Positions 12,726 through 48,741 of a stretch of DNA of 64,000 nucleotides are shown piece after piece. Source of the DNA: Gracilariopsis chorda (taxonomy: Eukaryota > Rhodophyta > Florideophyceae > Gracilariales > Gracilariaceae). How positions within the stretch are numbered: position 1 is the stretch's first letter; each line of letters opens with the position of its first letter. Location: contig NBIV01000104.1 in assembly GCA_003194525.1 (NCBI GenBank), positions 62,001 through 126,000 of the forward strand, in the 5' to 3' direction. Made by a program: the position numbers and the translations under genes. The notes beneath the pieces are model-generated. The model saw only the letters and a list, made by a program, of their open reading frames with translations. It was not told where the DNA came from and made no database searches.

Positions 12726-13533
12726 TGAAGTGCAACGCCCTCAGGGAGGGATTCTGGGTACTTGAACGCTTTCCCGATATTATCGGTTGTGTAGTGTGTA
12801 TATGAACTACGCCCCACAATGGTGGGTATGGACACGTGGGACACGGTTTTGGGTCAATTGGCGGTTGGCCACAGTAGTGGATGTTGCCACGGAATGTGGA
12901 GTATTTTAGTTAATTTTATTTATTATTTTCACACCCATTTCTGGGAAGCTAGTACTTAGTGCGACGGCGCACTGCCGTCGCACCAGTAAACCTTCCCCAA
13001 CAAGGGACCCCAACCTGGGGAATTGGCTCTGAGCTTTACCGCCTCCGCGTGTTCTCAACTCCTCCTTGGAGGGAAGCACCGTAGTGTACGGAAGTTCACC
13101 CCCCTTGCACATCTAAAGGAGACCCATCATTGGGAGTACTAATTGTTCCAATCATATTGGTGTTTCGCCCTGTATAGGGAGTCCTGTCCACCGGCATCGC
13201 CGTATCTACTCGTCGCTCTCGCGACCCACTCGTCCTTCCTCCTTCCCCTTTTTAGGGTAGCACCTCCCGCTATCCGCGGCCCTCGTGTGCGCATCCGCTC
13301 ACACACCCCCCACTTACGTGGAAACATACCTCTACTGAGGATCACACCCCGCTCACGCGGATACCGATTCTTCGCCTTCACCTCCCTGCGCGAGTCGCGA
13401 CAGGTGTCCCTGGTCTTACAAACCGGCTTCGCCGTGACACCTCTGGGAGGGCTCTACCCAACTGGGTTCACCTCGTGAGAGGAAGATCCCGGACGTCTTT
13501 CGGTGTTTTTCCCCTTTGGGGCATTGCACCACA
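12726..13533 (+). repeat. E1 5' LTR
   Basis: Starts TGAAGTGCAACGCCC and ends GGGCATTGCACCACA, near-inverted ends much longer than the usual TG/CA. It contains a perfect 10-bp stem with 5-nt loop at 12959-12983 (arms GTGCGACGGC and GCCGTCGCAC) and many smaller hairpins, e.g. CCGATA T TATCGG and ACCC AACT GGGT. Confidence 0.95.
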
Positions 13534-13638: not shown

Positions 13639-15813
13639 ATGTCGAGAAATCCCTCCGACGCGGAGCCAGTGGTTACGCGTAGTCGCTCCCGCGACAACGC
13701 GGACTCTTCCGAAGTTCGGTTCGTACCCCGTATCCCTATACGGACAAGTTCCAGCCGTGCTGGCGCCGCTTCATCGCGGAATGATACCCCCGACCGGGAA
13801 CCCCGGAACCTCCTTTTGCCCTCGTTATCACCCCCGCAGGGGAATGCAGCATCGACTCCGGCTGTTGCCGCAGTGCCCCAGGCACCCCGGCCTGCTCCCG
13901 CTGTCGCGGCTTCAAGCCCCCATGGAACGGGCGATAACACCCCCCAGGGGACTTCCCTGGAATCCCAGGTCCGCGCTCTGTGGACCGCCCATGACACCCT
14001 TGTAGGGGAACTAAAATCCCTCCAAGAGGTGGTCTCGGCAACCCCCGTAAAGGAGGTCGCCGAGGAGCTCCGTATTTTACGGTCTGACGTCAACTCCGTG
14101 TTGGAGAGTTTGGGACAACCCGCCGCCTTCATCGAAGGAGTTGAAGCCCGATTTGATCGGATTGGTGCCCGCCTGGAGACGCTGGAGCAGTTCTTCCTCA
14201 TGGACGAACCATCCCCGGGTGATCCGGTAAACGAGGCATCGCACAACGACCAGCTTGCTGGGAAGAAGAAACGCCGTCACCGACGGAAACATCACCGAAA
14301 ATATTCGGACTCCGATTCTTCGACATCGTCGGACTCACCCCGAAACCAATCGGTTAGCTCGAGCTCCTCGGACTCCGACTCGGAGGACGAGAAGCGAGGC
14401 TACTCCTCCCGCTCGAAGCGGTCATCGGCCACTGAAGGTGTGGTCCGAAACCGCCAGAAGGGGAGAAGACACCCCGGTCTCCGGGAATTGAAACCGACAA
14501 ACCCGGATTACCGGAAGCTTTTATCATACCGGTACTACCGGCTTGAAGATTCGTCACTTGGACGTACGCCCCGTGGTACGGGAAAGGTGCGAGAATGCAT
14601 TAAGCGAATGCAGCTCTCGCTCCGCAACCAGTATTTTACTGGAGAGGACCCAGTCCTAGTACTGGATTTCCTATCCCGCTTTGTAGCGGAGGCCGATATC
14701 CTCGGTATGAATGAGGGACAAGCCTATTTGGCTTTACCGTATTTCTTACGGGGAGTGGCCGAGGACCAATACACCTCTGTCCGAGGATCTTCTCGCGCCT
14801 CCGAGGGAGGAGTTACTTGCTGGCCGGAGGCTGTGCAGTATCTTCTGCGCTCCTACGCCACCAACACCGCTATTCAGCAGGCTATCCTCGCTTTGCGAGA
14901 TACACGCCAGCGTGCTGGAGAGACCGAGACCGATTACTCGGTGCGCCTTAACAAGGCTTTCCACAGATGTGGTAACGTATACCCCGCTGGGGAGCGCAGT
15001 ACCATGTTCATTGATGGTCTTGACACGGCAATCCGGAGTTTAGTTACCCGTTATCGGGAGGACAAGCGAAGGATCACCTACCTCGAGCTGGTCCAACACG
15101 CTCGAGCGGAAGGGGATGCACTTCGTGCAAGAACTCCGAACAATCGGTCTAAATCCGCCAAGGCGTTGTTGCTGGAAAGCGAAGCTTCCTCTCTCCCGCT
15201 CACCGCGGATGGGAACCCTGGACAGGGATTTGATACCGTGCATTTAGCGCAGGGGGATGGTGTGTCGATACCCACCAGTGAGTTACCGTCAACGACGGAG
15301 ATGACCCATGATACGGGAACAGAAGATCCCGTTCTATACGGTGGTAACAGTCGGGTTCAACCCCAACGACTCCCGTTTTCAAACGGTCAATCCCGTTATC
15401 AACGGCCTGGATGGACTGACACCCGCCCTGCGGTTCGCTTCTCCGATACTCGGAATGATAATCCGCGTGTCGCGGTGCTGGCTCTCATTTGCCACCTGTG
15501 CTATGCCCATGGCCATACCTCTCCTCAGTGTATTTGTTCACTGAAGGATATGGCCAAGGTGGTGGCAAATTATGAGGCCCTCACTCCAGAGGAGAAACGT
15601 TCCGTCCCGACGGCTTCCTACCTCCGTGCTAAAACGGACTTTTCTCACGCCCTACCACAGACCCCGCGTGCGCGGCAAGCTTCATACACCCCGATTCGGG
15701 AGATCACGCAACCATCCGTTGCAACCCCCGCTTACGCGGATAGAAACCCCCGTCAACGGGATGAAGCACTCGTTGTCGAGGAAACCAACCCACCGCCGAA
15801 GGCGGAAAACTAA
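13639..15813 (+). CDS. gag: E1 gag polyprotein
   Basis: A 724-residue capsid/nucleocapsid precursor. The order is: a Ser/Pro/Arg-rich N-terminus; a predicted coiled region with EELRILRSDVNSVLE; a basic then Ser/Asp/Glu-rich stretch at about 205-265; a capsid-like region at about 310-505 (KRMQLSLRNQYFTGEDPVLV, FLSRFVAEADILGMNEG, VQYLLRSYATNTAIQQ); and one CCHC zinc knuckle, C618-x2-C-x4-H-x4-C631. The start MSRNPSDAEP is shared by the E2 and E4 copies, and E3 has the related MSWRPSSAEP. The TAA at 15811 lies just before pol in another frame. E2 gag, when its insertion is disregarded, has the same codon count, supporting these limits. Confidence 0.93.
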   Translation: MSRNPSDAEPVVTRSRSRDNADSSEVRFVPRIPIRTSSSRAGAASSRNDTPDREPRNLLLPSLSPPQGNAASTPAVAAVPQAPRPAPAVAASSPHGTGDNTPQGTSLESQVRALWTAHDTLVGELKSLQEVVSATPVKEVAEELRILRSDVNSVLESLGQPAAFIEGVEARFDRIGARLETLEQFFLMDEPSPGDPVNEASHNDQLAGKKKRRHRRKHHRKYSDSDSSTSSDSPRNQSVSSSSSDSDSEDEKRGYSSRSKRSSATEGVVRNRQKGRRHPGLRELKPTNPDYRKLLSYRYYRLEDSSLGRTPRGTGKVRECIKRMQLSLRNQYFTGEDPVLVLDFLSRFVAEADILGMNEGQAYLALPYFLRGVAEDQYTSVRGSSRASEGGVTCWPEAVQYLLRSYATNTAIQQAILALRDTRQRAGETETDYSVRLNKAFHRCGNVYPAGERSTMFIDGLDTAIRSLVTRYREDKRRITYLELVQHARAEGDALRARTPNNRSKSAKALLLESEASSLPLTADGNPGQGFDTVHLAQGDGVSIPTSELPSTTEMTHDTGTEDPVLYGGNSRVQPQRLPFSNGQSRYQRPGWTDTRPAVRFSDTRNDNPRVAVLALICHLCYAHGHTSPQCICSLKDMAKVVANYEALTPEEKRSVPTASYLRAKTDFSHALPQTPRARQASYTPIREITQPSVATPAYADRNPRQRDEALVVEETNPPPKAEN

Positions 15814-15830: not shown

Positions 15831-18800
15831 TTGGGAGAGGCGTCCTCAGACAAGAGGCTGTTGGCGCCCGAGGCGTCCCTGCCTCGCTCCCCGGTGAAAA
15901 TCCTCTCGAGGAAAGACACCGCTGACGCGGACTCTGCGCACCTCGGTGTGTTGCGTCGCCCGTGGATACGGAGTAAAAATCCCCGGATTCCCGGTAGAGT
16001 CTTGATCATGGCCAAGCGCAACTATAAGGTCTATGCCGACCTTGGCCTTGATCCCCAGTTTATGGTGAGGTTTCTCACCGTCCTGGATACAGGTGCAGGC
16101 CCCAACTTCGTTGTGGAATCATTGTTACCCCCGCTTGTGCGGTCTCGTATCCGCTCTGACGCGGTCCCCGACATTTCGGATGCGAACAACAATCCGTTAC
16201 AAACGGTGGGCACAGTGGACCTCGTCGTGAGACTTGGTACATCTGTGGTGAAGTTGGACTTCATCGTTTGCCGTTCACTGGCAGCACCAGTCATACTGGG
16301 ATGTGATTACTGCGACAGATTTGTCGACGCAATCAGGCCCCGCCTCAGGCGTGTAGAACTTGACGACGGATCGTCGGTTCCGATTGTTCGCCGCCCGCTA
16401 AAGCGGTCCTCTCGGAAACAAGTTCCGCTCCCTGCTGCGCAGGAACCACCGCCCGCGTCCCGCGAGTCCACCAAGCTCCGCGTCGCTGCCTCGGTTTCTA
16501 TACTGGCTGAGTCCCAAGTCTGGGTACAGGTAAATTCCCGTCAACACGGTCTTCGGGTTATACAACCCCTCGCCTCGTTGTACGAGAAATCCCAGCTGGC
16601 GCTGGCTAATGGAATTGTCTCCATTTCCCCGGATGTTCCTTTCCGGATATTGGTTGCCAACCTTGGCAAACACCCCCAGTATCTGGTCAAACACCAAGTA
16701 ATTGGGAGTGTAACCCCCCATCCTATGGGAATGCTGCCAACGAAGATGACAGCCGCCGATGTACTCGGAGTTACCACCTCTTCTGAGGAGTTCACCCCGC
16801 CGTCCGAAGACGTCAAGTCTAAGGAGGGGGAGGAAACCGCTACTTCAGCGTCGAACATACCGAGTAACTCGGAATTGCGAACCACACCTTTTCCACAGGA
16901 CAATGCTCCATCGAGCAATGACCGGATTGATCCGGAAAAAGCACTTGAAGCGCTGGACTTCAGCCACGTGCCAGAGTCGCACCGCGACAAACTCCGTACT
17001 ATGTTACGGGAATTCACCACAATGTGGGATGGCTCGCTTGGCGAGATTGATGCAACGGAACACCGGATCGATTTAATCCCCGGTGCGCGACCGGTTGCAC
17101 AACCCCCTTACAGGGCAGGTCCGAAAGCTCGGGAAGAGGAGCAGTCCCAAGTGGACAAGATGCTCCGCGCAGGTGTGATTGAGCCCGCTCAATCGCCCTG
17201 GGCATCCCCAGTTGTACTGGCTTTAAAGGCTGACGGAACCTGGAGGTTCTGTGTCGACTACCGCCGGCTCAATGCCGTGACTGTTAGGGACACGTACCCC
17301 ATCCCTCGTATGGACGAGTGCATTGACTCCCTTGGAGACGCCACCGTGTTCACGGCCCTTGATGCCAATTGGGGATATTGGCAAGTACCTGTCAGACAGG
17401 AGGATCGCGACAAAACCGCATTCACCTGCCATGCAGGAACGTTCCGCTTCAAGCGGATGCCATTTGGGTTAACCAACGCCCCCGCCACCTTTCAGCGTGC
17501 AGTAGATATTCTACTCAACCGCTTTAAGTGGCGGAGTTGTCTGGTCTACCTTGATGATATTATCATCTTCTCCAACTCGTTGGACGACCATCTCACTCAC
17601 GTCCGAGACGTGCTGACCGTACTCCGCGATGCGGGAATTACCCTCAAGTTGAGGAAATGCGAGTTTTTCACAGATACTGTGAAGTATCTGGGTCACATTA
17701 TCCGTCCTGGACGGTTAGCGATCGAGAAAGCTCGAGTCAAATCCCTCGTTGAGGCGAAAGAACCCCGTACTCAAACGGAACTGCGCTCCTTTCTGGGGCT
17801 GGTCAACGTCTATCGACGGTTTATCCCGAACTTTTCGGATACTGCAGCGCCCCTGAACGCGTTGTTGCGAAAGGGGAACCCCCCAAAACTGGGAACATTT
17901 ACGCCCGAGCAATCGGAAGCCTTTAACTCCTTGAAGGAGGCTGTCACATCAGCACCAATCCTACATCTCCCAAAACTTGGGTTGCCATACTCCGTAGATA
18001 CGGACTCGAGCGACTACCAAGTCGGGTGTGCTCTTTTTCAAACCACCCCCGAGGGGGAACGACACCCAATTGGTTATTGGTCGCGCTCGCTCAATGTCCA
18101 TGAGCGGAACTACTCCGTATCGGAGAAAGAGTGCCTCGCCGTCGTATGGGCGATGACCACTCTGCGCCCCTACCTTATGGGAGTCCATTTCACCGTGTAC
18201 ACGGATCATTCCTCACTGAGGTGGTTAATGAATATCTCCGACCCGTCGGGACGCCTCATGCGCTGGAGACTCCGCCTCGCGGAATATGACTTCCAAGTCA
18301 TTTATAAAAAGGGCGCGCAGAACACCCAAGCCGACACTCTGTCGCGTTTACCCACAAGTGGGGAGGCACTCCCAACGGAGGATGATGAAGTCCCATGTTT
18401 CATGGCAATGGACCCGGATGATCCGGAATGTGCCGTCGGGGCTGAGCCAGAAAACTGGGACGAAGATGCTGACTTCGACTACCTACTCGCATCGCGAGAT
18501 GATTCTGAGAAACCCATACCGGGAAATTATGTACCGGTTGAGACCGAGGAAATGATCCGAGAACAATTCGGGGACCCCTTCTGTACAAGGATACGTGCAC
18601 GCCTCAACGGCGGAGAGAACCTCCCCTTCGGGGTGAACGACATTGGTTACCTCGTGAGGACCGTCGAGGCTACCCCACAAGTTGTGGTACCGCACACGCT
18701 ACAGAAGCGGATATCGCACCTTTCGCATTACCCGAAACTCGGGGGACACTCCGGTGGGAGGAAGCTTTATCTAACCCTTCGCAGGGATTTCTACTGGCCC

Positions 18801-21422
18801 GCCATGGCGGTTGATTGCTACGCTACGGTGCGGTTTTGCACGCAATGCGCGAAGAACCGGGTCAAACTCCGGAAGCACTCCAAACGGATGAAGCTATTCC
18901 CCGCCAGGGCGCCGCTCGAGTTTGTCGCAATTGACATTCTCGGACCATTGCTCTCTACCAGGAGAGGCAACAAGTTCCTACTCGTTATTACGGACAGGTT
19001 CTCGAAATTAGTTCGGACAGTCCCTCTAAAGAGGATTACCGCCTACACGGTCGCTCACGCCTTTGTGCGGCATTGGGTGTTTGCCTACGGACCTCCTTTG
19101 GAGCTACTTTCCGACAACGGGAAACAGTTCGCATCGCGATTTTTCCAGGACGTCTGTCGGATACTGGACGTGAAGAATCTCTTCACGACCACGTATCATC
19201 CCCAGTCTAATGGGCAGGTCGAGCGTTTCAACCGGACAATGCTCGCAGCTCTCCGTGCTTACACGGCTGACCACCCCAAGACTTGGGATATCTACACGGA
19301 TGCCGTGACCTTTGCGTACAATACGCAGGTACACCGGACTACCGGAATATCCCCTTTCGAGTTGGTCCTTTCACGGACACCCCCGCCAATGGCGTTGGAA
19401 TCCCAACCTACGTTGGACGCGTCCCCTTCTGTGAAGGATTACCGCCAGAAGTGGAAAGCATGGCTGACCAAGCTGGTACCCGCAGCGCGGAAGGCGATGG
19501 ACCACGCCCAAGCCGTCTACAAACGGAATTTCGATGCTCGCTTGCGAGGAGGCAAACCGGAACAGATCAACTCCGGGGACTTCGTATTCGTCCGCAAGGA
19601 GTACTACAACCCTGAAAGGGAGAAGCACCATAAGCTCTCGCCTGTGGCGGATGGTCCTTTCAAGGTTATCTCCGTCACGACGGACACAGTGGTTGTGGAA
19701 ATGGGTGACGCGCATGAGCGGTTATCTCGCGATCGCATCGTGCTAGCTCCGCCACCCTCGACTGAGGCTGCACCAGCTACGCTGGACCCTACGCTGGAAT
19801 ATGGCTCTGCATCCGATACATCGGTGGTGAGACGGCCTACCGTGCTACCACACCCCTCCCGGGGACTCTCAGACCTACCGACCCTGTCGGACTCACCGGC
19901 TCAGCCGGGTAATTCGGGCCTCTCTGTGCCCGCCCCTATGGCGCGAATCTACACCCGCCAGGCGGGGCATGTTATCCCTTATCCCGCCGCTCCGTCTCAG
20001 GAGGGGGAGGAGAACACTCGTTTTCGAGGAATGAGATCGCCGTCGCAACGGGAAACACGCCGTACCATACGGACAACTGACCGTGGAGCACGGAGTATCT
20101 CACGCGACAGTAATCCCCCGTCCTCGGGCAGCGCTGTGCAACAGGAACCAGACGCGCAGGTCCCGCAAAGGCGGCAAATACACCGTGTTACACGGGAAGC
20201 TGAAACGCAGCTACCGCACACCCCTGTCAGGGAAGGATCCCCGATACGGGAGTACGGCGACAATCGCCCTCAATCCCCTGAGCAGGGAGATGCCTCAAAG
20301 CCGCCATTGGCGGAAGTCCCCGCGGAAGCGGTTCAATCAGGTCGCTCAGACCCGCGCCCCGCGGAGAAGAGGCGCCCAGATACACCAGCGCCGCTGGGAA
20401 ATACCCACACCCCTATCGGGGAAAAGGGTAGCCAAGCCGCATCCGAAGCTTCAGGCCCTGGCGCGCAGCGCTCGGAAACGCTCCCCGTCGCAGACGGAAT
20501 CGAAGCCCCCGTTCCAGGGAATAATTTGCGCCAACCACCGCAACGCTGCGGCGAAGAACCGAGGAACTCGGGAAAAACGCGCGCCATCGCACGCTCGAAA
20601 CCGGTCGTACCGGACGCTGCTCCTCCTCATGGAGACGGTGCACCGCACTTAGCGGCCAGGCCCCTGAAAAGGGTGTCATCGGCACCTGCCCGGCACCCCC
20701 CAAAGGGGAATTTTGACCAAAATACCGGTGTACCGGAGTTAGCCTTAGGCAACCCCCCAGTAGCCGGGGACACCACGGCGCCGCCGGAACGTACGGTGCA
20801 GAGCGCTCGTGCGCCTGGCAGGGAGGCGGTTTGCCATCCAACCACCGTGTCGCACGGGACCCCCCAGGGGATCGTGGAAACGCCGATTCCGCAGGAGCGG
20901 TCATCTTCCCGCAAACTCGCGGTTCGTGAGTTCAACCGCGAATGCGGAGTTCAAGTCCCCCGCCGGTTGGCGGTTCGCCTGGCCTACCGTGAAGACGGGA
21001 ACAACGACACCCCAATGGGGAATGACTTGCCGGGGAAAACCGTGACACCACATACCCTCTTGAGGGATATTTTCCCGCATGAGCAGCGGCCACTAGGACA
21101 GCGCACGGCAACGTCGGAGTTATCGCCGAACACCCTGCTAAGGGACATTATACCGCACCGCGGACAACCCTCGCAAGGGAGTACAACCACCACCTGGCAC
21201 GGCCGGCAGGTCTACGAACGAGAGTTCGTAGTAGACCGACTTGTCGGACACACCTGGGACCAGGATGGTATTCTACAATACCGCGTCCGCTGGTACGGGT
21301 ACGACCCCAGTGGGGATACGTGGGAGCCAATGGAACACCTCCCACGGTCGCAGGTCGTGCGATACCACCGTCAAACGGGAACTGCAGCTCCAGCCACGCT
21401 GGTAAATGCCCAAGTTGGGTAA
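15831..21422 (+). CDS. pol: E1 pol polyprotein: PR-RT-RNase H-IN-chromodomain
   Basis: 1,863 codons. Protease LDTGAGPNF (D86-T-G); reverse transcriptase with CVDYRRLNAVT and YLDD (573-576); RNase H from about YSVDTDSSDYQVGCALFQ (near 720) and YTDHSSLRWL; integrase with an HHCC finger (HLSHYPKLGGH, CTQC) and catalytic D1035, D1095, E1131 (D-x59-D-x35-E). A Pro/Arg-rich linker of about 450 residues follows, then a C-terminal chromodomain from about 1795 (FVVDRLVG, YRVRWYGYDPSGDTWEP). This order defines Ty3/gypsy chromoviruses. The first codon listed is TTG; the frame is open upstream through the end of gag and is -1 relative to it, so expression probably needs a -1 frameshift near GGCGGAAAAC just before the gag stop or re-initiation. 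No canonical slippery heptamer was seen. Confidence 0.95.
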   Translation: MGEASSDKRLLAPEASLPRSPVKILSRKDTADADSAHLGVLRRPWIRSKNPRIPGRVLIMAKRNYKVYADLGLDPQFMVRFLTVLDTGAGPNFVVESLLPPLVRSRIRSDAVPDISDANNNPLQTVGTVDLVVRLGTSVVKLDFIVCRSLAAPVILGCDYCDRFVDAIRPRLRRVELDDGSSVPIVRRPLKRSSRKQVPLPAAQEPPPASRESTKLRVAASVSILAESQVWVQVNSRQHGLRVIQPLASLYEKSQLALANGIVSISPDVPFRILVANLGKHPQYLVKHQVIGSVTPHPMGMLPTKMTAADVLGVTTSSEEFTPPSEDVKSKEGEETATSASNIPSNSELRTTPFPQDNAPSSNDRIDPEKALEALDFSHVPESHRDKLRTMLREFTTMWDGSLGEIDATEHRIDLIPGARPVAQPPYRAGPKAREEEQSQVDKMLRAGVIEPAQSPWASPVVLALKADGTWRFCVDYRRLNAVTVRDTYPIPRMDECIDSLGDATVFTALDANWGYWQVPVRQEDRDKTAFTCHAGTFRFKRMPFGLTNAPATFQRAVDILLNRFKWRSCLVYLDDIIIFSNSLDDHLTHVRDVLTVLRDAGITLKLRKCEFFTDTVKYLGHIIRPGRLAIEKARVKSLVEAKEPRTQTELRSFLGLVNVYRRFIPNFSDTAAPLNALLRKGNPPKLGTFTPEQSEAFNSLKEAVTSAPILHLPKLGLPYSVDTDSSDYQVGCALFQTTPEGERHPIGYWSRSLNVHERNYSVSEKECLAVVWAMTTLRPYLMGVHFTVYTDHSSLRWLMNISDPSGRLMRWRLRLAEYDFQVIYKKGAQNTQADTLSRLPTSGEALPTEDDEVPCFMAMDPDDPECAVGAEPENWDEDADFDYLLASRDDSEKPIPGNYVPVETEEMIREQFGDPFCTRIRARLNGGENLPFGVNDIGYLVRTVEATPQVVVPHTLQKRISHLSHYPKLGGHSGGRKLYLTLRRDFYWPAMAVDCYATVRFCTQCAKNRVKLRKHSKRMKLFPARAPLEFVAIDILGPLLSTRRGNKFLLVITDRFSKLVRTVPLKRITAYTVAHAFVRHWVFAYGPPLELLSDNGKQFASRFFQDVCRILDVKNLFTTTYHPQSNGQVERFNRTMLAALRAYTADHPKTWDIYTDAVTFAYNTQVHRTTGISPFELVLSRTPPPMALESQPTLDASPSVKDYRQKWKAWLTKLVPAARKAMDHAQAVYKRNFDARLRGGKPEQINSGDFVFVRKEYYNPEREKHHKLSPVADGPFKVISVTTDTVVVEMGDAHERLSRDRIVLAPPPSTEAAPATLDPTLEYGSASDTSVVRRPTVLPHPSRGLSDLPTLSDSPAQPGNSGLSVPAPMARIYTRQAGHVIPYPAAPSQEGEENTRFRGMRSPSQRETRRTIRTTDRGARSISRDSNPPSSGSAVQQEPDAQVPQRRQIHRVTREAETQLPHTPVREGSPIREYGDNRPQSPEQGDASKPPLAEVPAEAVQSGRSDPRPAEKRRPDTPAPLGNTHTPIGEKGSQAASEASGPGAQRSETLPVADGIEAPVPGNNLRQPPQRCGEEPRNSGKTRAIARSKPVVPDAAPPHGDGAPHLAARPLKRVSSAPARHPPKGNFDQNTGVPELALGNPPVAGDTTAPPERTVQSARAPGREAVCHPTTVSHGTPQGIVETPIPQERSSSRKLAVREFNRECGVQVPRRLAVRLAYREDGNNDTPMGNDLPGKTVTPHTLLRDIFPHEQRPLGQRTATSELSPNTLLRDIIPHRGQPSQGSTTTTWHGRQVYEREFVVDRLVGHTWDQDGILQYRVRWYGYDPSGDTWEPMEHLPRSQVVRYHRQTGTAAPATLVNAQVG

Positions 21423-21613: not shown

Positions 21614-23401
21614 TCACTCATCCCCATCGTCCGGGGCGTAACCCCCAGCAAGGCGGTAGGCCAACGCGTCCGCCATGGTGGTGACATCCCCCGATACCTC
21701 GGCAGCGCTAAGACCGGCACCCCGGAGGAAACGTGCGATGATTTCGTTTTCATTCGCCGTCACCCCGCTGGGGATAGAAGGTCCGGCAATTGCCGTTGAA
21801 GGGTCAGCAGCCGGCTCGGCCGGAGATACCCCCTCTGGGAAAGCTTCCGCGCTAGCGCCGGTTTCCTCTACGTCCATCTCCCCGGGTTCTTCCGGTTCGT
21901 TATCGACCATTGGGTCATCCCCGCCGTATGCGCGGTAGTAGTCGTCAGAATCGACGTACCCCACCGGGTGGTCTTCCGGCACATGCCGGGGCGTATCGTG
22001 AAGCTCTCGCGCCTCCTCGGAGGAAATTTCCCGGAACTCCCAGGGGTCGAAGTAGATAAAATCCCCCGCAAGGGCGGTGTTTCTACCGAGTCCCGGACCA
22101 CCGGTGTTACCGCTGCCGCCATCCAGACGACCGCTTTGCTCCAGCGGGACCTCACTCCAGCTAACGCTGTCGATGTACCCAAGTAATTGGAGGACCTCTT
22201 CATTGTTGGCCTGGCCCCCAAGGGGGATGCGAAGATCCAGGTTTCGGATCGCTGCCCGCACACGCGGTTGAAGGAACCAGAGACGATACTGGTCGTACGC
22301 CTCGTTGAGGATATAAGCCGCAGTGCGGGCCGCCCACTCCGTAACCACTACGGACCACAACCCCGACCGGGGATCCTGCATGAGCAGCGAACCGAGGTAC
22401 GTAAGTACCAGCGGGAGTTCTATGTAGCACCCCCGGCAGGCTTCATGGAAGCGCCACCACTCGGGGAGTGCTACATACCGACCTAGTCGGTGAGGCGGCG
22501 CAATCCGCTCTATCTCCACGTTCTGATACGGGATAAAGTACCCGAATCGGGATCGCCAACGCCGCTCGTAGCGGATGAAGTTTTGGAGAAAGTTGGACCG
22601 GTATTGCCGGGGAAGGTACCTGAACTCCGCCCGAATAATCGGTCGCTCCCAGCAAAGGGCCTCTTGCCGCGCTGCGGGGAAATTCCTCCAAGCGAGGGTC
22701 TCGAGGCGGAACAGGTTCTCGCCGTACCCAATCTCCCCGCGAGTGCGGAAGTAGCTAACGTCGAAGCCAAACTCCGGTGGGACCGGTACATCGAATGGAG
22801 CCCGGCTCTGCCGTTGGTACGCCATCCGCGTCAACGCGGTCTGCGCCGCAGCGACGGTCTCGCCCGAGTTTCTTCGGAGGTGGTGACGCGGAATCGCAAT
22901 CCGGTGACGCCAATCCCACGATGTGGTGACTGTTCTGGGCAGATCCCCCGGAAGGGTGTCTGAACCATCCGCATAAGCGGTGACCAACCCCTCATTGAGG
23001 ACAGCGACCGGGTGAAACCACGGGGCAAGGCGCAGGCGCGACGCGTGATTCCGATTCATCGGGTTGAGCCCCACCAGGGTGTTGTAGGTTGGCCAGTTGG
23101 ACACCGGAGTGGTTCCGGAGGACACCACCGAAGGTGGTAGTGCGAAGGGATGGTCGGCTGCAGCAGCCATATTCCCCGGTTGTACCGGATTTCGATCGCC
23201 CTGAGGCAGGGGAACTGACCGGAAACCGGTGGTGTACCGCCCGAGAAGTCTCGGCAGTTGGCTGTGGCTGTTGATATGGTTGTCGTTGTTCATTTGTCCC
23301 TTTTGGAGGGTGGCTGTTGTTGTCGTTTGTGTGCTTGATGACTCTGGTGCAGATGGATTTACCGGAGAACCGGAGACAAAGCACGCGCTTTTATCACCCA
23401 T
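21614..23401 (-). CDS. E1 antisense ORF, conserved protein of unknown function
   Basis: A 595-residue protein coded opposite to gag-pol. Its ATG lies 58 bp inside the 3' LTR and its stop 192 bp beyond the pol stop, so the two transcripts would converge. Not a family I recognise. The N-terminal 60-90 residues are Ser/Thr/Asn/Gln-rich. The middle (about 110-430) is dense in Trp/Tyr/Arg with blocks LRLAPWFHP, TSWDWRHRIAIP, RPIIRAEFRYL, FGYFIPYQNVEIERI, ACRGCYIELP, SGLWSVVVTEWA, DQYRLW and DLRIPLGG. The C-terminal part is acidic (AGDFIYFDPWE, then Glu/Asp-rich). No signal peptide, membrane segment or zinc motif stands out. E3 carries a clear homologue in the same relative position, which argues for a real gene. 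An antisense promoter in the LTR is the likely driver (inference). Confidence 0.82.
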   Translation of the reverse strand: MGDKSACFVSGSPVNPSAPESSSTQTTTTATLQKGQMNNDNHINSHSQLPRLLGRYTTGFRSVPLPQGDRNPVQPGNMAAAADHPFALPPSVVSSGTTPVSNWPTYNTLVGLNPMNRNHASRLRLAPWFHPVAVLNEGLVTAYADGSDTLPGDLPRTVTTSWDWRHRIAIPRHHLRRNSGETVAAAQTALTRMAYQRQSRAPFDVPVPPEFGFDVSYFRTRGEIGYGENLFRLETLAWRNFPAARQEALCWERPIIRAEFRYLPRQYRSNFLQNFIRYERRWRSRFGYFIPYQNVEIERIAPPHRLGRYVALPEWWRFHEACRGCYIELPLVLTYLGSLLMQDPRSGLWSVVVTEWAARTAAYILNEAYDQYRLWFLQPRVRAAIRNLDLRIPLGGQANNEEVLQLLGYIDSVSWSEVPLEQSGRLDGGSGNTGGPGLGRNTALAGDFIYFDPWEFREISSEEARELHDTPRHVPEDHPVGYVDSDDYYRAYGGDDPMVDNEPEEPGEMDVEETGASAEAFPEGVSPAEPAADPSTAIAGPSIPSGVTANENEIIARFLRGAGLSAAEVSGDVTTMADALAYRLAGGYAPDDGDE

Positions 23402-23445: not shown

Positions 23446-23458
23446 AAGGGGGGGGATA
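23446..23458 (+). promoter_or_regulatory. E1 polypurine tract
   Basis: AAGGGGGGGGATA immediately before the 3' LTR, the expected plus-strand primer. E2 (54408-54419) and E4 (34735-34747, inverted) have nearly the same tract; E3 has a related one (28356-28371, inverted). Confidence 0.85.
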
Positions 23459-24266
23459 TGAAGTGCAACGCCCTCAGGGAGGGATTCTGGGTACTTGAAC
23501 GCTTTCCCGATATTATCGGTTGTGTAGTGTGTATATGAACTACGCCCCACAATGGTGGGTATGGACACGTGGGACACGGTTTTGGGTCAATTGGCGGTTG
23601 GCCACAGTAGTGGATGTTGCCACGGAATGTGGAGTATTTTAGTTAATTTTATTTATTATTTTCACACCCATTTCTGGGAAGCTAGTACTTAGTGCGACGG
23701 CGCACTGCCGTCGCACCAGTAAACCTTCCCCAACAAGGGACCCCAACCTGGGGAATTGGCTCTGAGCTTTACCGCCTCCGCGTGTTCTCAACTCCTCCTT
23801 GGAGGGAAGCACCGTAGTGTACGGAAGTTCACCCCCCTTGCACATCTAAAGGAGACCCATCATTGGGAGTACTAATTGTTCCAATCATATTGGTGTTTCG
23901 CCCTGTATAGGGAGTCCTGTCCACCGGCATCGCCGTATCTACTCGTCGCTCTCGCGACCCACTCGTCCTTCCTCCTTCCCCTTTTTAGGGTAGCACCTCC
24001 CGCTATCCGCGGCCCTCGTGTGCGCATCCGCTCACACACCCCCCACTTACGTGGAAACATACCTCTACTGAGGATCACACCCCGCTCACGCGGATACCGA
24101 TTCTTCGCCTTCACCTCCCTGCGCGAGTCGCGACAGGTGTCCCTGGTCTTACAAACCGGCTTCGCCGTGACACCTCTGGGAGGGCTCTACCCAACTGGGT
24201 TCACCTCGTGAGAGGAAGATCCCGGACGTCTTTCGGTGTTTTTCCCCTTTGGGGCATTGCACCACA
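23459..24266 (+). repeat. E1 3' LTR
   Basis: 808 bp, the same length as the 5' copy and without differences that I could see. Followed by the GTGTC duplication and resumed solo LTR sequence. Confidence 0.95.
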
Positions 24267-24428
24267 GTGTCGTGACGAAGACTAACGGCAGTGCCAGTAA
24301 ATAAACCTTATACAAGGCGAACACCAAGACAGTTGGAATAACAATCTGAATACTCGGGTTCTTTAGATAGGCAAGGGGGTTAGACTTCGCGTATGCGACG
24401 GTGCTTCCCTCCAACGAGGAGTACAGAA
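24267..24428 (-). repeat. Solo LTR, part 2 of 3
   Basis: Continues the interrupted solo LTR after E1, beginning with the second GTGTC copy (24267-24271). It aligns with the middle of the other LTRs in inverted orientation and is cut by element E2, whose left duplication is CAGAA (24424-24428). Confidence 0.85.
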
Positions 24429-25254
24429 TGAAGTGCAACGCCCTCAGGGAGGGATTCTTGGTACTTGAATGCTTTCCCGATATTATCGGTTGTGTAGTGT
24501 GTATATGAACTACGCCCCACAATGGTGGATATGGACACGTGGGACACGGTTTTGGGTCAATTGGCGGTTGGCCACAGTAATGGACGTTGCCACGAAATGT
24601 GGAGTATTTTAGTTAATTTTAGTTATTATTCTCACACCCATTTCTGGGAAGCTAGTACTTAGTGCGACGGCGCACTGCCGTCGCACCAATAAACCTTCCC
24701 CAGCAAGGGACCCCAACCTGGGGAATTGGCTCTAGTTGTTACCGCTTGCGCGCGTGCTCTACTCCTCCTTGGAGGGAAACGCCGTGAACCACGGGACATC
24801 TAACCCCCTTGCACATCTAAAGGGACCCATCACTGGGAGTCATATTATTCCAATTGCATTGGTGTTTCGCCCTGTATAGGGATATTGTTACCGGCATCGC
24901 CGCTCGCCCGCGTCGCTCTCGCGACTCACTTCGCCCTCTCCTCCCCCTCTTCGCCCTTCCTTTTCCCCCTTTCTAGGGTAGCATCTCCCGCTATCCGCGA
25001 CCCTCGTGTGCGCATCCGCTCACAAACCCCCACTTACGTGGAAACCTACCTCTGGCGAGGACGCATTCCCGCTCTCGCGGATACCGATTCTTGTCCTAAA
25101 CCCTCTTGCCCTAGTCGCGAAGGGTGGCCTCGGTCTTACAAACCGGCTCCGCCGTGCCACCCCTAGAGGGGCTCTACCCAACTGGGTTCACCTCCACAGA
25201 GGAAAGATACCGAACGTCTTTCGGTGTTTCTCCCCCTTGGGGCGTTGCACCACA
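24429..25254 (+). repeat. E2 5' LTR
   Basis: 826 bp, TGAAGTGCAACG to GCACCACA, followed by AAG and a TGGTCTCCCGGCC primer site. It differs from the E1 LTR at many positions, often in hairpin loops. Confidence 0.93.
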
Positions 25255-25358
25255 AAGTGGTCTCCCGGCCTAGAATCGGTTTTTGTTTTCCCTCTTACGA
25301 GGTTTGTTTTTATTACCGGAAGTTCCGTGATCGTTTCCCGTCGTAACGGTATTTTCTC

Positions 25359-27454
25359 ATGTCGAGAAATCCCTCCGATGCGGAGCCAGTGGTTACGCGT
25401 AGTCGCTCCCGCGACAACGCGGACACTTCCGAAGTTCGGTTCGTACCCCGTATCCCTATACGGACAAGTTCCAGCCATGCTGGCGCCGCTTCATCGCGGA
25501 ATGATACCCCCGACCGGCAACCCCGGAACCTCCTTTTGCCCTCGTTATCACCCCCGCAGGGGAATGCAGCATCGACTCCGACTGTTGCCACAGTGCCCCA
25601 AGTACCCCGGCCTGCTCCCGCTGTCGCGGCTTCAAGCCCCCGTGGAACGGGCGATAACACCCCCCAGGGGACTTCCCTGGAATCCGAGGTCCGCGCTCTG
25701 TGGACCGCCCATGACACCCTTGTAGGGGAACTAAAATCCCTCCAAGAGGTGGTCTTGGCAACCCCCGTAAAGGAGGTTGCCGAGGAACTCCGTATTTTAC
25801 GGTCTGACGTCAACTCCGTGTTGGAGAGTTTGAGACAACCCGCCACCTTCATCGAAGGAGTTGAAGCCCGATTTGATCGGATTGGTGCCCGCCTGGAGAC
25901 GCTGGAGCAGTTCGTTCTCATGGACAAACCATCCCCGGATGACCCAGTAAACAAGGCATCGCACAACGACCAGCTTTCTGGGAAGAAGAAACGCCGTCAT
26001 CGACGGAAACACCACCGAAAATATTCGGACTGTGATTCTTCGACATCGTCGGACTCATCCCGAAACCATTCGGTTAGCTCGAGCTCCTCGGACTCCGACT
26101 CGGAGGACGAGAAGCGACGCTACTCCTCCCGCTCGAAGCGGTCATCGGCCACTGAAGGTGTGATCCGAACCCGCCAGAAGGGGAGAAGACACCCCGGTCT
26201 TCGGGAGTTGAAGCCGACAATCCCAGATTACCGGAAGTTATTATCATACCGGTACTACCGGCTCGAAGATTCGTCACTTGGACGTATGCCCCGTGGTACG
26301 GGAAAGGTGCGAGTATGCATTAAGCGAATGCAGCTCTCGCTCCGCAACCAGTACTTTACTGGAGAGGACCCAATCCTGGTACTGGATTTCTTATCCCGCT
26401 TTGTAGCGGAGGCCGATATCCTCGGTATGAATGAGGGACACGGCTATTTAGCTTTACCGTATTTCCTACGGGGAGTGGCGGAGGACCAATACATCTCTGT
26501 CAGAAGATCTTCCCGCGCCTCCGAGGGAGAAGTTACTTGCTGGCCGGAACCGGTGCAGTATCTATTGCGTTCTTACGCCACAAACTCCGCTATTCAGCAG
26601 GCTATCCTCGCTTTGCGAGATACACGCCAGCGTGCCGGAGAGACCGAGACCGATTACTCGGTGCGCCTTAACAAGGCTTTCCACAGATGTGGTAACGTAT
26701 ACCCCGCCGGGGAGCGCAGTACCATGTTCATCGATGGTCTTGACCCGGCAATCCGGAGTTTAGGTACCCGTTATTGGGAGGACAAGCGGAGGATCACCTA
26801 TCTCGAGCTAGTCCAACACGCCCGAGCGGAAGGGGATGCACTTCGTGCAAGAACTCCGAACAATCGGTCTAAATCCGCCAAGGCGTTGTTGCTGGAAAGC
26901 GAAGCTTCCTCTCTCCCGCTCACCGCGGATGGGAACCCTGGACAGGGATTTGATACCGTGCATGTAGTGCAGGGGGATGGTGTGTCGATTCCAACCACCG
27001 ATTTACCGTCAACGACGGAGATGACCCGTGATACGGGAACGGAAGACCCCGTTTTGTACAGTGGTAACAGTCGGGTCCAACCCCAACGACTCCCGTTTTC
27101 AAACGGTCAATCCCGTTATCAACGGCCTGGATGGACTGACACCCGCCCTGCGGTTCGCTTCTCCGATACTAGGAATAATAATCCGCGTGTCGCGGTGTTG
27201 GCTCTCATTTGCCACCTTTGTTATGCCCATGGCCATACCTCGCCTCAGTGTATCTGCTCACTGAAGGATATGGCCAAGGTGGTGGCAAACTACGAGGCCC
27301 TCACTCGAGAGGAGAAACGTTCCGTCCCGACGGCTTCCTACCTCCGTGCTAAAACGGACTTTTCCCATTCCCTACCACAGACCCCGCGTGCGCAGCAAGC
27401 TTCATACACCCCGATTCGGGAGATCACGCAACCATCCGTTGCAACCCCCGCTTA
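25359..27454 (+). pseudogene. gag: E2 gag, first part (interrupted by E3)
   Basis: Gag from MSRNPSDAEP through the CCHC knuckle up to ...VATPAY, where E3 begins at 27455; the frame then runs artificially into E3 LTR sequence and stops at 27569. Together with the tail at 48742-48820 the length is 725 codons including stop, exactly as in E1, with no other lesion, so gag was open when E3 inserted. Confidence 0.9.
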
Positions 27455-28355
27455 TGTAGTGCAATACCCGCAAGCGGGACAACACACGAAGACGTTCGGA
27501 TCTTCCCCTCTGGAGGGTAGCAAAGCGAACGGAGCCTCTCCGGATGAGCACGACGAAGTCGGGTTGTAAAGCCGAGGCTCACCCTCACGCCAAGCGGGGA
27601 GAGTTGAAACAGTAGGATTAGGATCACCACGAATGGGAAAACAGCCCTTCCAAGGAGTACGAGTCCACGTAAGTTGGGGAAGACGTCACGGGATACCGGC
27701 ACGAGAGACACGCGTCAGCGGTGACGAGCAACCACACAAAGGGGTAGGAACCACGAGAGTGGGGTAAGGGAAATACGGGGGATGCCCGATTGGGGGCGAC
27801 GGGGGCGTGGGCCAACGGGGCCACGGAAAAAGATACAAAGGAACCCTATACAGGGGTGAGAACACGACGGTGGTGAATTAAGTGACAAACGCCCAAAGCG
27901 GTGATACTCCTGGTGACGCAGGGTGGATAGTTCTACCGTTAGTAACGCGGCTTTACCTCCGAGGAGTGTAGAAGACTCGCGAAAGCGGAAAAGACTTAGA
28001 GCCAAGAACGCTGGTTGGGGAAGTTTACTCAGTGTCAGGGCGAGGTCGCCGAGCCACTATATAGTGTAGTAATCTCCCTACTGTAGCGTAGATAAATTAT
28101 AAATAATAAATATAAATTAAATAAATGTCCACACTGTGGTGCCAACCTCCTCCTGACGATCCGTGTCACACGTTGTCCACTCACGCCTTGGGCGGCACAC
28201 GGCGCATGCACAGGTGTGCACCTGGTGCACAGTGCGGATCTGCTGAGGGCTGAGACACCCGCTAATAGCGGTAGTAATCATAAACACGCGAAAGCGGCAA
28301 ACGCACCAAGTCCACAGGGCATCGCTGAGTCTTCCTCCTTGAGGATTGCACTTCA
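27455..28355 (-). repeat. E3 3' LTR
   Basis: 901 bp, TGTAGTGCAATACCCGC to GAGGATTGCACTTCA on the plus strand. Followed at 28356 by the inverted polypurine tract TATACCCCTCCTGAGG. Contains the perfect 12-bp palindrome CACTATATAGTG at 28055-28066. Confidence 0.92.
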
Positions 28356-28390: not shown

Positions 28391-30202
28391 ATGGCAACGG
28401 AAGCACCGGGCAAGGTCCTTAAATGTAAGTCCGGCTCGCCGGTTCTCCATCCCACCCTGGGTAACGAGCACCTAGCTGCGAACAGCGAATCTGCGACCAA
28501 CTTTTACGAGGTTCTTCCAACAACACACACGCTTTCGCGGCCTTCTTCTCCGATTACTCGGCTTCCTTCATCTACGATGAACAACAACAACAACAACGGC
28601 AACGCCGGCAGCAACACAGCGTTACAGTACTTCTCCGGATTTCATTCCATGCCTCTACGGCAAAGCGGTCTCTCGACTCCGTCGCAACAAACAGGCGCAA
28701 ATGTGAGTGCAGCTCCCGCGGGAGGGTATCTAATGGCAGCGTGGCCTTCGTACGACATGCTGGTCGGGCTGCAGACTTCGCAACATGCGATGACTCTCCG
28801 GCTGGCGCCGTGGTTCCACCCGACTGCGGTGTTCAATGATGCGCTTCTGGCGATGTATACCGATGGAAACGGGATGCTCCCGAGTGACGTTCCGGCAATC
28901 GTGACCACTTCGTGGGATTGGCGCAATCGCGTAGCGATACCCGTGCACACGGTAATCCGACGGGGTCGGGATTCAGCAGCTTCCGCGCACGCGGCGTTGG
29001 TCTTACTTGCTCATCAGCGGCTTCGCCAGGCTCCCTTCGAATATCCCATCCACGATGGTATGGGCTCCGACATCGGATTGTATCGCACTCAAGGTGAAAT
29101 GGGGTACCTCGACCGCCTCGCGGGTTTAGAAACACTCTCGTGGAGAAGCAATCCCGTGGCGCGGCAAGACGCGGTGTGCTGGACACGGCCGATCATTCGG
29201 GCTGAATTCCGCTATATGCGTCGCTTGGCGAGGGCCAACTTCTTGTCGATGATACGCTTTGAGCGGCGAGCATGGTCCCGATTCGGGTATTTGATTCCGT
29301 ATCAGAACGTAGAAGTCGAACGCATCCGCGTGGTCAACCGACGGGGTCGGTACGTTCCGATTCCACCGTGGTGGTCGCATCTCGAAGCGTGCCGAGGTTG
29401 CTACATCGAGTTGCCTCCCGTGATCACGTATTACGGCTCATACCTCATCGGGGATCCTCAGTCCGGGCTCTGGTCCGTGGTGGTCACCGAATGGGCGGTC
29501 TGCACAGCGGCTTTCATCCTCTGGGATGTTTATGACCAGTACAGACTGTGGTGCATCCCGTTGCGGGTCCGTGCCGCCATCCGAGCGCTGGACTTACGAA
29601 TCCCACTAGGTGGTGAGGCAAACGCTGACAAAGTAGCGGGGCTCCTCGATTTCATCGACCAGGTTGACTGGGCTTCGGTTCCTCTAGAGCAGAGTGGGCG
29701 TACTGCCGGTAGCAGGATACAGGACCTGTCGCCAGGGCGTCGAACTCCGCTCGCGGGTGACTTCATCTACTTCAACCCTTGGGAGGGGCATGAGAGCTCC
29801 GCGGAGGAAGCGAACGAGCTCTGGTTCGCACTGAGATATATCCCCGAGGGGCATCCGACCGGTTTTGTTGACGCCGATGAGTACTACAACGTCTACAACG
29901 GTGAGGATCCGATGTTCGACAACGAGCCCAACGAAGGTGCCGGTCACGCCGAGGCGGAGGGAGAACCATATGGTATGGATGCTCCTGGAGTCGCCTCTGC
30001 GGGTCAGCCGTACGATCCGTCGGTCGGTCTTCCCACTGGTGGGTCCTCGACGCCAGGTGAGGCGAACGTGGCCCCTGCGGGTCAGGCTGCCATGATCTCT
30101 CAGTTCCTCCGCCAAGTGGGGCTGGGAGGTAACGAGGCCAGTGGCGATGTCACCGCGATGCGGGATGCTCTGATAGCCCGACTCCAGGGAAATAACCACT
30201 AA
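28391..30202 (+). CDS. E3 antisense ORF, homologue of the E1 antisense ORF
   Basis: A 603-residue protein read opposite to E3 gag-pol, with its ATG 36 bp inside the 3' LTR and stop 214 bp from the pol stop. It shares with E1, in the same order, SGSPV near the start, LRLAPWFHP, TSWDWRNRVAIP, RPIIRAEFRYM, FGYLIPYQNVEVERI, ACRGCYIELP, SGLWSVVVTEWA, DQYRLW, DLRIPLGG, PLEQSGR and AGDFIYFNPWE, with length differences that keep the frame. The N-terminus has an Asn6 run (MNNNNNNGN); the C-terminus is acidic, then Gly/Ser/Pro-rich. No known domain, signal peptide or membrane segment recognised. It is uninterrupted although neighbouring pol and gag are broken. Function unknown. Confidence 0.82.
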   Translation: MATEAPGKVLKCKSGSPVLHPTLGNEHLAANSESATNFYEVLPTTHTLSRPSSPITRLPSSTMNNNNNNGNAGSNTALQYFSGFHSMPLRQSGLSTPSQQTGANVSAAPAGGYLMAAWPSYDMLVGLQTSQHAMTLRLAPWFHPTAVFNDALLAMYTDGNGMLPSDVPAIVTTSWDWRNRVAIPVHTVIRRGRDSAASAHAALVLLAHQRLRQAPFEYPIHDGMGSDIGLYRTQGEMGYLDRLAGLETLSWRSNPVARQDAVCWTRPIIRAEFRYMRRLARANFLSMIRFERRAWSRFGYLIPYQNVEVERIRVVNRRGRYVPIPPWWSHLEACRGCYIELPPVITYYGSYLIGDPQSGLWSVVVTEWAVCTAAFILWDVYDQYRLWCIPLRVRAAIRALDLRIPLGGEANADKVAGLLDFIDQVDWASVPLEQSGRTAGSRIQDLSPGRRTPLAGDFIYFNPWEGHESSAEEANELWFALRYIPEGHPTGFVDADEYYNVYNGEDPMFDNEPNEGAGHAEAEGEPYGMDAPGVASAGQPYDPSVGLPTGGSSTPGEANVAPAGQAAMISQFLRQVGLGGNEASGDVTAMRDALIARLQGNNH

Positions 30203-30415: not shown

Positions 30416-33400
30416 TTATCCCACTTGGGCGTTTATCACCGATGCCGGGATTCCCGTTCGCGTTCTGTGATGATATGACACCACTTTCGAACGTGGGAGG
30501 TGCTCTATCGGCTCATCCGAATCATATTCGGGCCCGAAACCGTACCAGCGTACGCGGTACTGGATGTAACCAGCTGGATGGTAAGAATGTTCCAAAATGT
30601 GGTCTACAACAAACTCCTGTTTGTAGACTTCCTGGCCTCGCCGTGTTCGCATTATCGCGTCCTGCACGGCAGGCTCTACCATCACTGCTGGGTGTTGGAC
30701 AGTCTTCCCCGGAAGGGGCATGGCTTGATACTGCCTTTCCATGCCCTTAGAGGGGTCATTAGCTGGTTTCCGGGTAGGTTCATCCGCTTCGCGGGCCTGG
30801 AGGTCCTCGGCACGGCCGGTTGCGTCGACTACTTGATGGTGCGTATCGGGACCCTTGCTGTGGGTTGAAGTATCCCGCTTCGTGGTTTCTTCACTCCTTA
30901 AGGGGGCTTCTATTGACGACACCCTTTGAGGGGCTTCTAACGCATCTGAAAGATGAGCATCTGGGTCGCGAACCACAGGTTTGTGTGTAGATATCCGTCT
31001 TGACGGGGGTGCTCCAGACGACGAAGTCGGTTGCACCACGGTGCGTCGTACAGTACGCGTCGGCTCGCCTCGGGCGGTGATTGGTGCCTTTGCCGTCCGT
31101 ACGGTGTTGGGGTCACGTGCCGTTTGCAACAGATGGTCGAGGGTTGTCAGCGCCGTGTCGCGTTCCGCCTCCTTACGTGAGGGCAGCTGCAACGGCGCTG
31201 CCGGTGTGTTGTCTCGCTTCGGCGACGAAGTATTTCCGTCTTTGACATGCTTTCCTTCGGGAGTGACCGGTGTGACTTCGGCGACACTGTCGGGATCAAC
31301 CGAGACACTCGGAGTGAGTTCGCGACTGCGCGATGGTCCTAAACCAGAATCCAGCTTGCTGGTCGTTTTCCTTCCGTTCTGTACGGTGTGCTTGCCCGGC
31401 CTGGCCGGTGTGTTCTGCCGTGCAGTAGGAGTTACCACGTCCGGTGTAGTCGGCTCAGAGGATACCGCGAGGGCCTGCTCTGCATCATCCAGCGTAGCTG
31501 TTGTTGACGAACCGTGACCCACGGAATGCGGATCAACGCTCGACGGCACAGCCGGTTCAGTATCGCAAACGCGATTAGTTTCCTGCGACGATTTAACTTT
31601 GGCGAGAGACTTCCCACTGCGTGGTGCATTTTGACGACTAGAATCCCGGTGGGGAGTGCGATCTGGCGCAGATGCGGTAGAACTGCCTCGAGAGGGTTCA
31701 GCGGTAGCTGTAGCGCGCAAATGCGAAGATGGCACGTCAGTAGACGGAACTCTTGGTCCACTATTGTCCTTTTGGATGTGTCCGGAGGTCCGTGCACCAC
31801 GGTTGTCATGACGCGACGAAGCGGTTTCAGTGTTAGGGTCCTCCTCCCCTCCTTACACGGAGCGGCATGGAGAGTGGTAGAAGCGCCCAAACTGCGGGGA
31901 TAGACACCGCGCGGTGGCGTTGGAGAAGAAAGGCCATTTGGGCCTGCGTCCGATAAGGACGGTATATCTGAAAGTCCCCTTGAACGGTGTGGCAGCACAG
32001 AATGCCTGTTAACCACAGATGTGGGTTGTTCCACTGGGGTGTGTTGGTTCTCATATTGGTAAGCAACCTCTACGGAGGGTGGCGGTGCCATAACAACGCG
32101 ATCGCGGGAAATCCGCTCATGAGCGTCGTTCATTTCCACCGCTAAGGTGTCGTTATCCACTGATATGACCTTGTAGGGACCATACGCGACGGGTGAGAGC
32201 TTATGCCGTTTCTCCTTATCTGGGTTCCAGTGCTCCTTACGGACGAAGACGTAGTCACCCTCCGTAATTGGTGGTGCTGTAACTCGTACACGAGAGTCAA
32301 AATCACGCTTGTACGCGGCCTGTGCTCGTGCCATGGAGCTCCGGGCGACCGGGATTAACTTCGTAAGCCACGCTTTCCATCGTTGGCGATAATCCTTCAC
32401 GGAAGGGAAGTTTGCCAGCGTAGTCTGGGGTTCCAACGCTACAGCGGGCGGATGAGGCGAAAGCACCAATTCAAATGGAGTCAAACCCGTTGTACGGTGT
32501 ACCTGTGTGTTATACGCAAACTTCAAGGCTTCAGTGTACAGGTCCTATGTTTTGGGTTGATCAGCAACGTAAGAACGGAGAGAGGCTAACAGCTTTCGGG
32601 TAAACCGCTCGACTTGCCCATTACACTGAGGGTGGTAGGTCGTTGTGAACAGATTCTTGATATCGAGAATCCGACACACGTCCTCAAATAATAGGGATGC
32701 GAATTGCTTTCCGTTATCGGATAGAATGTTAACCGGTGGTCCGTAGACAAATACCCAATGGTTCACGAAGGCTTGCGCCACCGCGAAAGCGGATATCTTC
32801 CGTAAAGGTACGGTGCGAACCAACTTGGAGAAACGATCCGGGATAACGAGTAAAAACTTATGTCCACGCTTTGTGGTGAGCAGCGGTCCCAAGAGGTCAA
32901 TTGCAACAAACTCGAGAGGGGCCCGTGCTGGAAATAACTTCAACTTCGTTGAGTGCTTCCGGAGTTTGACCCGGTTTTTGGCACACTCCGTGCATGAACG
33001 CACAGTCGCGTAGCAATCCACAGCCATGGCTGGCCAATAGTAACTCTGTCGCAACGTGAGGTAAAGTTTCCGTCCACCGCCGTGTCCACCAAGTTTTGCA
33101 TAGTGCGACAAGTGCAACACTCTAGATTGTAGAGTATGCGGTACCACTACCTGTGGGGTTGTTTGAACCGTCCTGACGAGGTATCCAACATCATTCACCT
33201 CGAAAGGGAGTTGCGCACCGCCATTAAGTCGGGCGCAAATCTGAGTACAGAAGGGATCACCTTGTTGTTCTCTGACCATCTCCTCCGGGGTATTGCACGA
33301 AATTACCCGGTGGGGGTTTCTGAGCATCGTCCAAGACGAGTAGTGCGTCCAGTTCATCATCCGATTCCAGTTCTTCATCCGAGTTATCGGGTTCACGGTC

Positions 33401-34734: not shown

Positions 34735-34790
34735 TATCCCCCCCCTAAGACGGGAAAACGACCGTGGACGCGGAGGATTCCCAGACGAAA

Positions 34791-34841
34791 ATGAGTGATA
34801 AAAGCGCGTACGCCGTCTCCGGTTCTTCTTTCCTGGCATAG
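34791..34841 (+). pseudogene. E4 relic of the antisense ORF start
   Basis: Seventeen codons including stop, beginning MSDKSAYAVSGSSF, i.e. the first codons of the E1 antisense ORF followed directly by sequence from downstream of its end. Same breakpoint as in E2. Confidence 0.75.
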
Positions 34842-34990
34842 CCGGCTATTGTAGTATAGTGTTGTGGGGAGCTAGCTGATCCCTTGAATAAACTTTCCCG
34901 TTTTGAATAGTGATTCTCGTTTGACTTCCCCGTCTTCGACGGACCTTGCCTTGTTATCCTTTCCTATCGCCCTCCGTTCGCGCGGCAACG

Positions 34991-40434: not shown

Positions 40435-40451
40435 AGGGGAGACTCCCTCAG

Positions 40452-42626: not shown

Positions 42627-42730
42627 GAGAAGATACCTTTACGACGGGAAACGATCACGGAACTTCCGGTAATAAAAACAAACCTCGTAAGAGGGAAAAC
42701 AAAAACCGATTCTAGGCCGGGAGACCACTT

Positions 42731-48736: not shown

Positions 48737-48741
48737 ACTTA

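Follow-up and report, generated by a model that had tools for sequence, protein, structure and literature searches.

A probable protein-coding antisense accessory gene lies tail to tail with pol in chromoviruses of the red alga Gracilariopsis chorda

Introduction

An open reading frame of about 600 codons runs opposite to gag and pol near the 3' end of two LTR retrotransposons, designated E1 and E3, in the red alga Gracilariopsis chorda. Its presence raises the question of whether the frame encodes a protein and, if so, what such a protein could do for elements that already carry gag and pol. The elements were characterized in a 64,000-nucleotide stretch of contig NBIV01000104.1, referred to below as the window, and the antisense frame was followed through the 91.3 Mb genome (1081 contigs).

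Results

E1 is an 11.5-kb element on the plus strand, with two identical 808-bp LTRs (5' LTR, 12726..13533; 3' LTR, 23459..24266) that have TG...CA ends and are flanked by a 5-bp target duplication (GTGTC at 12721-12725 and 24267-24271). Between the LTRs lie a 724 aa gag (13639..15813), which was assigned by position and gave no gag match in Pfam, pol (15831..21422) and a polypurine tract read from the sequence (23446..23458), which adjoins the 3' LTR. The Pfam domain order within pol is RT (residues 466-624), RNase H (718-819), integrase (953-1124) and a C-terminal chromodomain (1799-1840). Together with the LTR features, this order bears out the assignment of the carrier to the chromoviruses in the preliminary description. 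Directly before the 5' LTR, at 12411-12595, lies an inverted piece that is about 80% identical to an LTR end.

E3 belongs to a nest at 24428-55244, in which it lies within E2 and itself contains E4. The element entered by E3, E2, is on the plus strand and consists of a 5' part (24428..27456) and a 3' part (48738..55244). E3 is on the minus strand and comprises a 5' LTR (47836..48736), a 5' half containing gag and the start of pol (43599..47830), the 3' half of pol (30416..33906) and a 3' LTR (27455..28355), with the LTR ends placed by eye. The 3' half of pol is split over several frames and is interrupted upstream by E4 (33907..43557, minus strand), whose LTRs are 99% identical. The antisense frame of E3 is open despite the broken pol, and E2 and E4 are without the antisense gene. 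LTR-pair identity is 100% for E1, 99.0% for E4, 97.2% for E2 and 96.9% for E3. Between E1 (18500-19560) and E4 (36700-37771) the integrase region is only about 76% identical, compared to 95-97% over gag and RT and 89-92% further on, as if segments had been exchanged between element types.

The antisense ORFs were found where the preliminary description had placed them, at 21614..23401 on the minus strand in E1 (595 aa) and at 28391..30202 on the plus strand in E3 (603 aa), each opposite to its own pol. By coordinates, the gap between the ORF stop and the pol stop is 191 bp in E1 and 213 bp in E3, where 192 and 214 had been given. A start within the 3' LTR had also been reported and proved incorrect. 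Because the E1 LTR maps to 23459-24266, the ATG at 23401 lies outside it, preceding the LTR by 57 bp and adjoining the polypurine tract; in E3 the corresponding gap is about 35 bp, measured to an LTR end at approximately 28355 that was read by eye from the sequence. The two proteins are 53% identical and 65% positive over 540 aligned columns, and the ordered blocks noted earlier are visible in this alignment.

The longest open frame in the interval between pol and LTR spans 609 codons in E1 and 610 in E3, compared to maxima of 396 and 451 in 300 first-order shuffles per element. On the sense strand each frame contains 8-21 stops and no open stretch exceeds 158 codons in E1 or 172 in E3, which upholds the earlier statement that no frame on that strand explains the conservation. 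With E1-E3 identities of 46-55% for gag, 52% for the chromodomain end of pol and 81% for RT, the antisense protein is conserved like other proteins of the element, close to gag and less well than RT.

The antisense gene is under purifying selection between lineages. The dN/dS check proposed in the preliminary description returned omega values of 0.14 at a dS of 1.8 and of about 0.4 at a dS of 0.06-0.11. Over 567 codons of the E1-E3 alignment in the ORF frame, differences fell at 202 first, 175 second and 362 third positions; omega was far below 1 and a value of 1 was rejected (likelihood ratio, 943), a comparison in which silent change is saturated and the protein-based codon alignment favours a low omega. 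Unsaturated pairs depend on the alignment little. The pair L044-L046 gave an omega of 0.143 (dS 1.77, 273 codons), and three less diverged pairs gave 0.41 (E1-L109), 0.45 (E1-L110) and 0.39 (L109-L110), with likelihood ratios of 14.6, 9.5 and 20.3, respectively. Values for four recent copy pairs (1.12, 0.63, 1.37 and 0.88) were none of them clearly different from 1, an outcome expected once a copy has inserted, and give the selection reading no help. Variants shared among 30 E3-type copies, which were chosen by score and are hence tilted to intact ones, comprised 1 stop where 6.6 were expected (p 0.009) and 104 replacements out of 166 (p 0.035), and singleton variants in the same copies displayed no deficit of stops or replacements. 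Shared variants were too few to tell in eight E1-type copies.

The gene had been described as common to two divergent elements. It is indeed present in both E1 and E3 but is not limited to them, as relatives of the protein are encoded at a minimum of 261 distinct places in the genome. Among the matches listed, the E1 query contributed 74 places, E3 a further 68, and the relatives P0002, P0007 and P0018 contributed 16, 75 and 28; the count used every listed E1 and E3 match, 28 of 82 for P0002, 77 of 82 for P0007 and 32 of 76 for P0018, and left out matches judged already counted. At all 8 E1-type and 29 of 30 E3-type loci the gene is followed by pol on the opposite strand, and 37 of these 38 loci have an intact ATG. 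Of 13 loci of other types, whose best stretch is 35-56% identical to E1, 8 have the chromodomain end of pol next to the end of the gene; in the remaining 5 no pol was found behind it in the flank examined, and in one of them pol was matched on the LTR side. The frame is without a stop at 62 of the 74 E1-type places among the matches listed, a fraction biased toward good copies because matches were sorted by score. The ORF is best read as an accessory gene that codes for a protein in red-algal chromoviruses. It is an old part of these elements and is repeatedly arranged tail to tail with pol.

Named relatives outside Gracilariopsis chorda come from Gracilaria domingensis and Agarophyton chilense, both Gracilariaceae. 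Nineteen aligned relatives are 27-60% identical to the E1 protein and similar in length, and five residues are invariant in the 19-sequence alignment (E259, F260, R261, R280 and P291). P0002 corresponds to the public gene model BWQ96_03215 (G000:C30:292265-293737), which matches the genome at 100% over residues 1-491. The model is without some 20 residues found there in most aligned relatives, perhaps owing to a mispredicted intron.

As the preliminary description had supposed, Pfam and PDB sequence searches assign the protein to no recognised family. The E1 protein gave no match in Pfam, the 19 relatives gave two weak single-member matches, and a PDB profile search returned no match. An AlphaFold model built from 19 sequences reached a mean pLDDT of 72.6 and a pTM of 0.65, with 277 residues at pLDDT ≥ 90, mostly in a confident core at residues 101-480. 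Foldseek searches of this model at E up to 10 found no match in the PDB and viral libraries, a result that falls short of proving a new fold. An acidic stretch at residues 481-548 (17 D/E, 1 K/R) is followed by a C-terminal module predicted to be small and helical (helices at 549-561, 566-569 and 573-584). This module may be weakly Ish1-like in one relative, since one of seven tails matched the Ish1 profile with an E of 0.0019 and 19 bits, under the cut-off of 26.6. By these searches the protein family appears to be new.

An AT-rich block (28/30) is located within the E1 LTR at 23635..23664 on the minus strand, 263 bp upstream of the ATG of the antisense gene. For the most AT-rich 30-mer upstream of the gene, the distance to the start codon is 262-331 bp in E1, E3 and a further four types, and 155-230 bp in L105, L106 and L108, where it was measured from another ATG. 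The block is a possible core promoter of the antisense gene.

E2 and E4 have lost most of the antisense gene by the same kind of deletion, with junctions near 54328-54336 in E2 and at 34815/34826 in E4. The E4 junction was matched at ≥ 95% in all 40 scored places, which were the best 40 of 853 candidates. A wider sample was drawn from the best 92 of 4967 RT matches, of which five were excluded (four near contig ends, one beyond the contig). Among the 87 E1-type elements examined at their 3' ends, 57 hold the gene or its examined part (26 near-complete and listed, 30 matched without gaps inside a stretch of 600-700 bases, and 1 with a divergent match), at least 27 carry a deletion that takes away much or all of the gene, and 3 gave no match. 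The 27 deletions are a lower bound because deletions beyond the examined stretch are missed; the stretches of L047, L068, L073 and L083 stop short of one known breakpoint. The 21 deletions located within examined stretches represent a minimum of five breakpoint pairs (12, 1, 1, 6 and 1). At 18 of the 21 junctions the two matched parts share 6-22 bases, and at the other 3 there are 24 unmatched bases. The overlaps suggest template switching.

Elements from which an internal deletion removed the gene have increased in number. A pol frame that reaches ≥ 1800 aa and has no stop in its RT part was present in 7 of 27 deleted and 16 of 57 gene-holding elements (p 1.0). Since open pol is equally common with the deletion, there is no strict requirement for the gene in cis. 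The amplified derivatives are likewise compatible with a gene of little present use, or with a loss that is favoured.

A separate property of these elements is an abundance of short perfect hairpins. From approximately 12000 to 56000 in the window, and most strongly at 13639-21422, hairpins with 5-bp stems and 1-4-nt loops are enriched several-fold over shuffles; the enrichment covers gag, pol, the LTR and the antisense gene, and the typical hairpin is about 13 nt long with CC...GG ends. In E1 gag-pol, perfect 5-bp stems with a loop of 3 nt numbered 77, against 8.5 in 20 shuffles or 6.9 in 15 shuffles, and loops of 1, 2 and 4 nt were enriched about fourfold and those of 5-8 nt up to about 2.5-fold, with no enrichment at 0. 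Under synonymous-codon shuffling, pol contained 53 hairpins compared to 7.7 (sd 3.1, largest 20 of 100 shuffles), gag 24 compared to 3.1 and the antisense gene 11 compared to 2.5. Stems of exactly 5 bp numbered 68 against 5.8 expected and those of 6 bp 7 against 1.8; C-G ends closed 59 of the 68, and CC-N9-GG occurred 142 times against 57.8. Enrichment was also observed in E2, E3, E4, L039, L044 and L104, was weaker at loop 3 in L106 and L111, and was absent from the two flanks tested (17 kb together). Individual positions turn over, with 24 of 163 aligned E1 hairpins fully kept in E3 and no clear covariation at the aligned E1-E3 hairpins. Compared with 20 shuffles, two element stretches folded better (z -2.40 and -2.16) and one host stretch worse (+1.62). 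Selection on hairpin density or a mutational process could produce the enrichment.

Discussion

The arrangement found here has precedents. Antisense genes termed aORF-3R are described in plant Ty3/gypsy elements, including Grande (gene23), RIRE2, Retand and PvRetro13 (PMC7264820, PMC11963269), and are reported from most or many copies, with a degree of conservation similar to that of other element proteins and with no settled function (PMC7264820). Grande gene23 is described as having a promoter of its own and as giving rise to a product that is nuclear (PMC7264820). Like the aORF-3R genes, the E1/E3 gene is antisense and lies between pol and the 3' LTR; unlike them, it occurs in a red-algal host phylum and is accompanied by many amplified deletion derivatives. 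Its carrier also has a chromodomain, in contrast to Retand, which is placed in a non-chromovirus lineage. TRP28 (PF04195), the domain of the Retand-type protein, gave no Pfam match in E1, E3 or the 19 relatives, and there was no SMC match either. By description, a further parallel is brtn, an antisense gene of the fungal LTR element Boty of Botrytis (PMC8365987, PMC7264820). The architecture is therefore a known one (Grande, Retand, Boty) and the protein apparently unrelated, since the aORF-3R and brtn layout is present but TRP28, by Pfam, is not. The HBZ-type antisense genes of deltaretroviruses likewise lie on the 3' LTR side (PMC11963269), but the antisense protein has no Pfam match of any kind, and host and element are unrelated.

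A trans-acting accessory protein, expressed from the 3' LTR side and perhaps nuclear, is on balance the probable account of the gene. The gene would be transcribed separately from the gag-pol RNA, from a promoter in the 3' LTR that faces the antisense direction, the protein would serve the family in trans, and deletion derivatives, probably arising by template switching in reverse transcription, would borrow it. A gene that is not strictly required in cis yet selected is most simply explained by a trans-acting product, with weak cis use and self-regulation remaining as rivals. An analogous case of a helper that is encoded by an element and acts in trans on its family may be found in the VANC proteins, which oppose the silencing of VANDAL elements in Arabidopsis and bind motifs, often tandem repeats (PMC5735166); VANDALs are DNA transposons, whereas E1 and E3 are LTR elements. 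More tentatively, and with well under even confidence, the role proposed as most likely would be that of a nuclear helper that binds nucleic acid or chromatin and works against silencing or assists in the handling of RNA or cDNA. The small helical module at the C-terminus, with its weak likeness to Ish1 in one relative, counts in favour of this account; the lack of a Pfam domain and an Ish1 match under the cut-off speak against a nuclear role.

The protein could instead limit its own family, repressing it in trans as a form of copy-number control, with the derivatives as escapees or passengers. The frequency of deletion derivatives, some with open pol, fits this explanation, and trans action is compatible with it. 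It is nonetheless unlikely: long-term purifying selection would require selection at the level of host or clone, and the derivatives would be repressed too, yet one junction has reached at least 40 places. A dispensable function that favours its own copy, for example in assembly or integration, and is often lost under weak selection would account for the repeated losses and for an omega of about 0.4 at recent divergence, weaker than the 0.14 at greater divergence. An RNA separate from the genomic RNA would give such a function little cis preference, however, and it is considered rather improbable.

Two further explanations have little to recommend them. Convergent pol and antisense genes would yield overlapping RNAs, and non-coding antisense RNAs are known from other elements (PMC7264820), so that the transcript might act through double-stranded RNA with the long ORF incidental. 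That is scarcely probable, being largely contradicted by the omega results, which indicate frame-specific purifying selection, and opposed by an ORF longer than in shuffles and by relatives of similar length at 27-60% identity. The open antisense frame of E3 beside a broken pol could point to a captured or domesticated host gene maintained by host-level selection, but all places examined closely are repeated, singleton changes are near neutral, and no single-copy relative appeared among the matches listed for the E1, E3, P0002, P0007 and P0018 queries; this origin is hardly credible.

A long shot within the trans-acting account is that the antisense protein, with a new fold, recognises micro-hairpins of 11-14 nt (CCNNN-NNN-NNNGG) and thereby marks family RNA or cDNA for protection, export or packaging. 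If so, deletion derivatives, which would retain the hairpins, would continue to be served by the protein that full copies produce.

Antisense accessory genes are known in plants and fungi, where they are described as having no settled function (PMC7264820), and the present one is in a red alga. Its copies number in the hundreds, naturally deleted elements with open pol occur alongside them in one genome, and the structure model is confident. A comparison of RNA, small RNA and chromatin between copies that have the gene and copies that lack it could directly test what such genes do and whether they act in trans.
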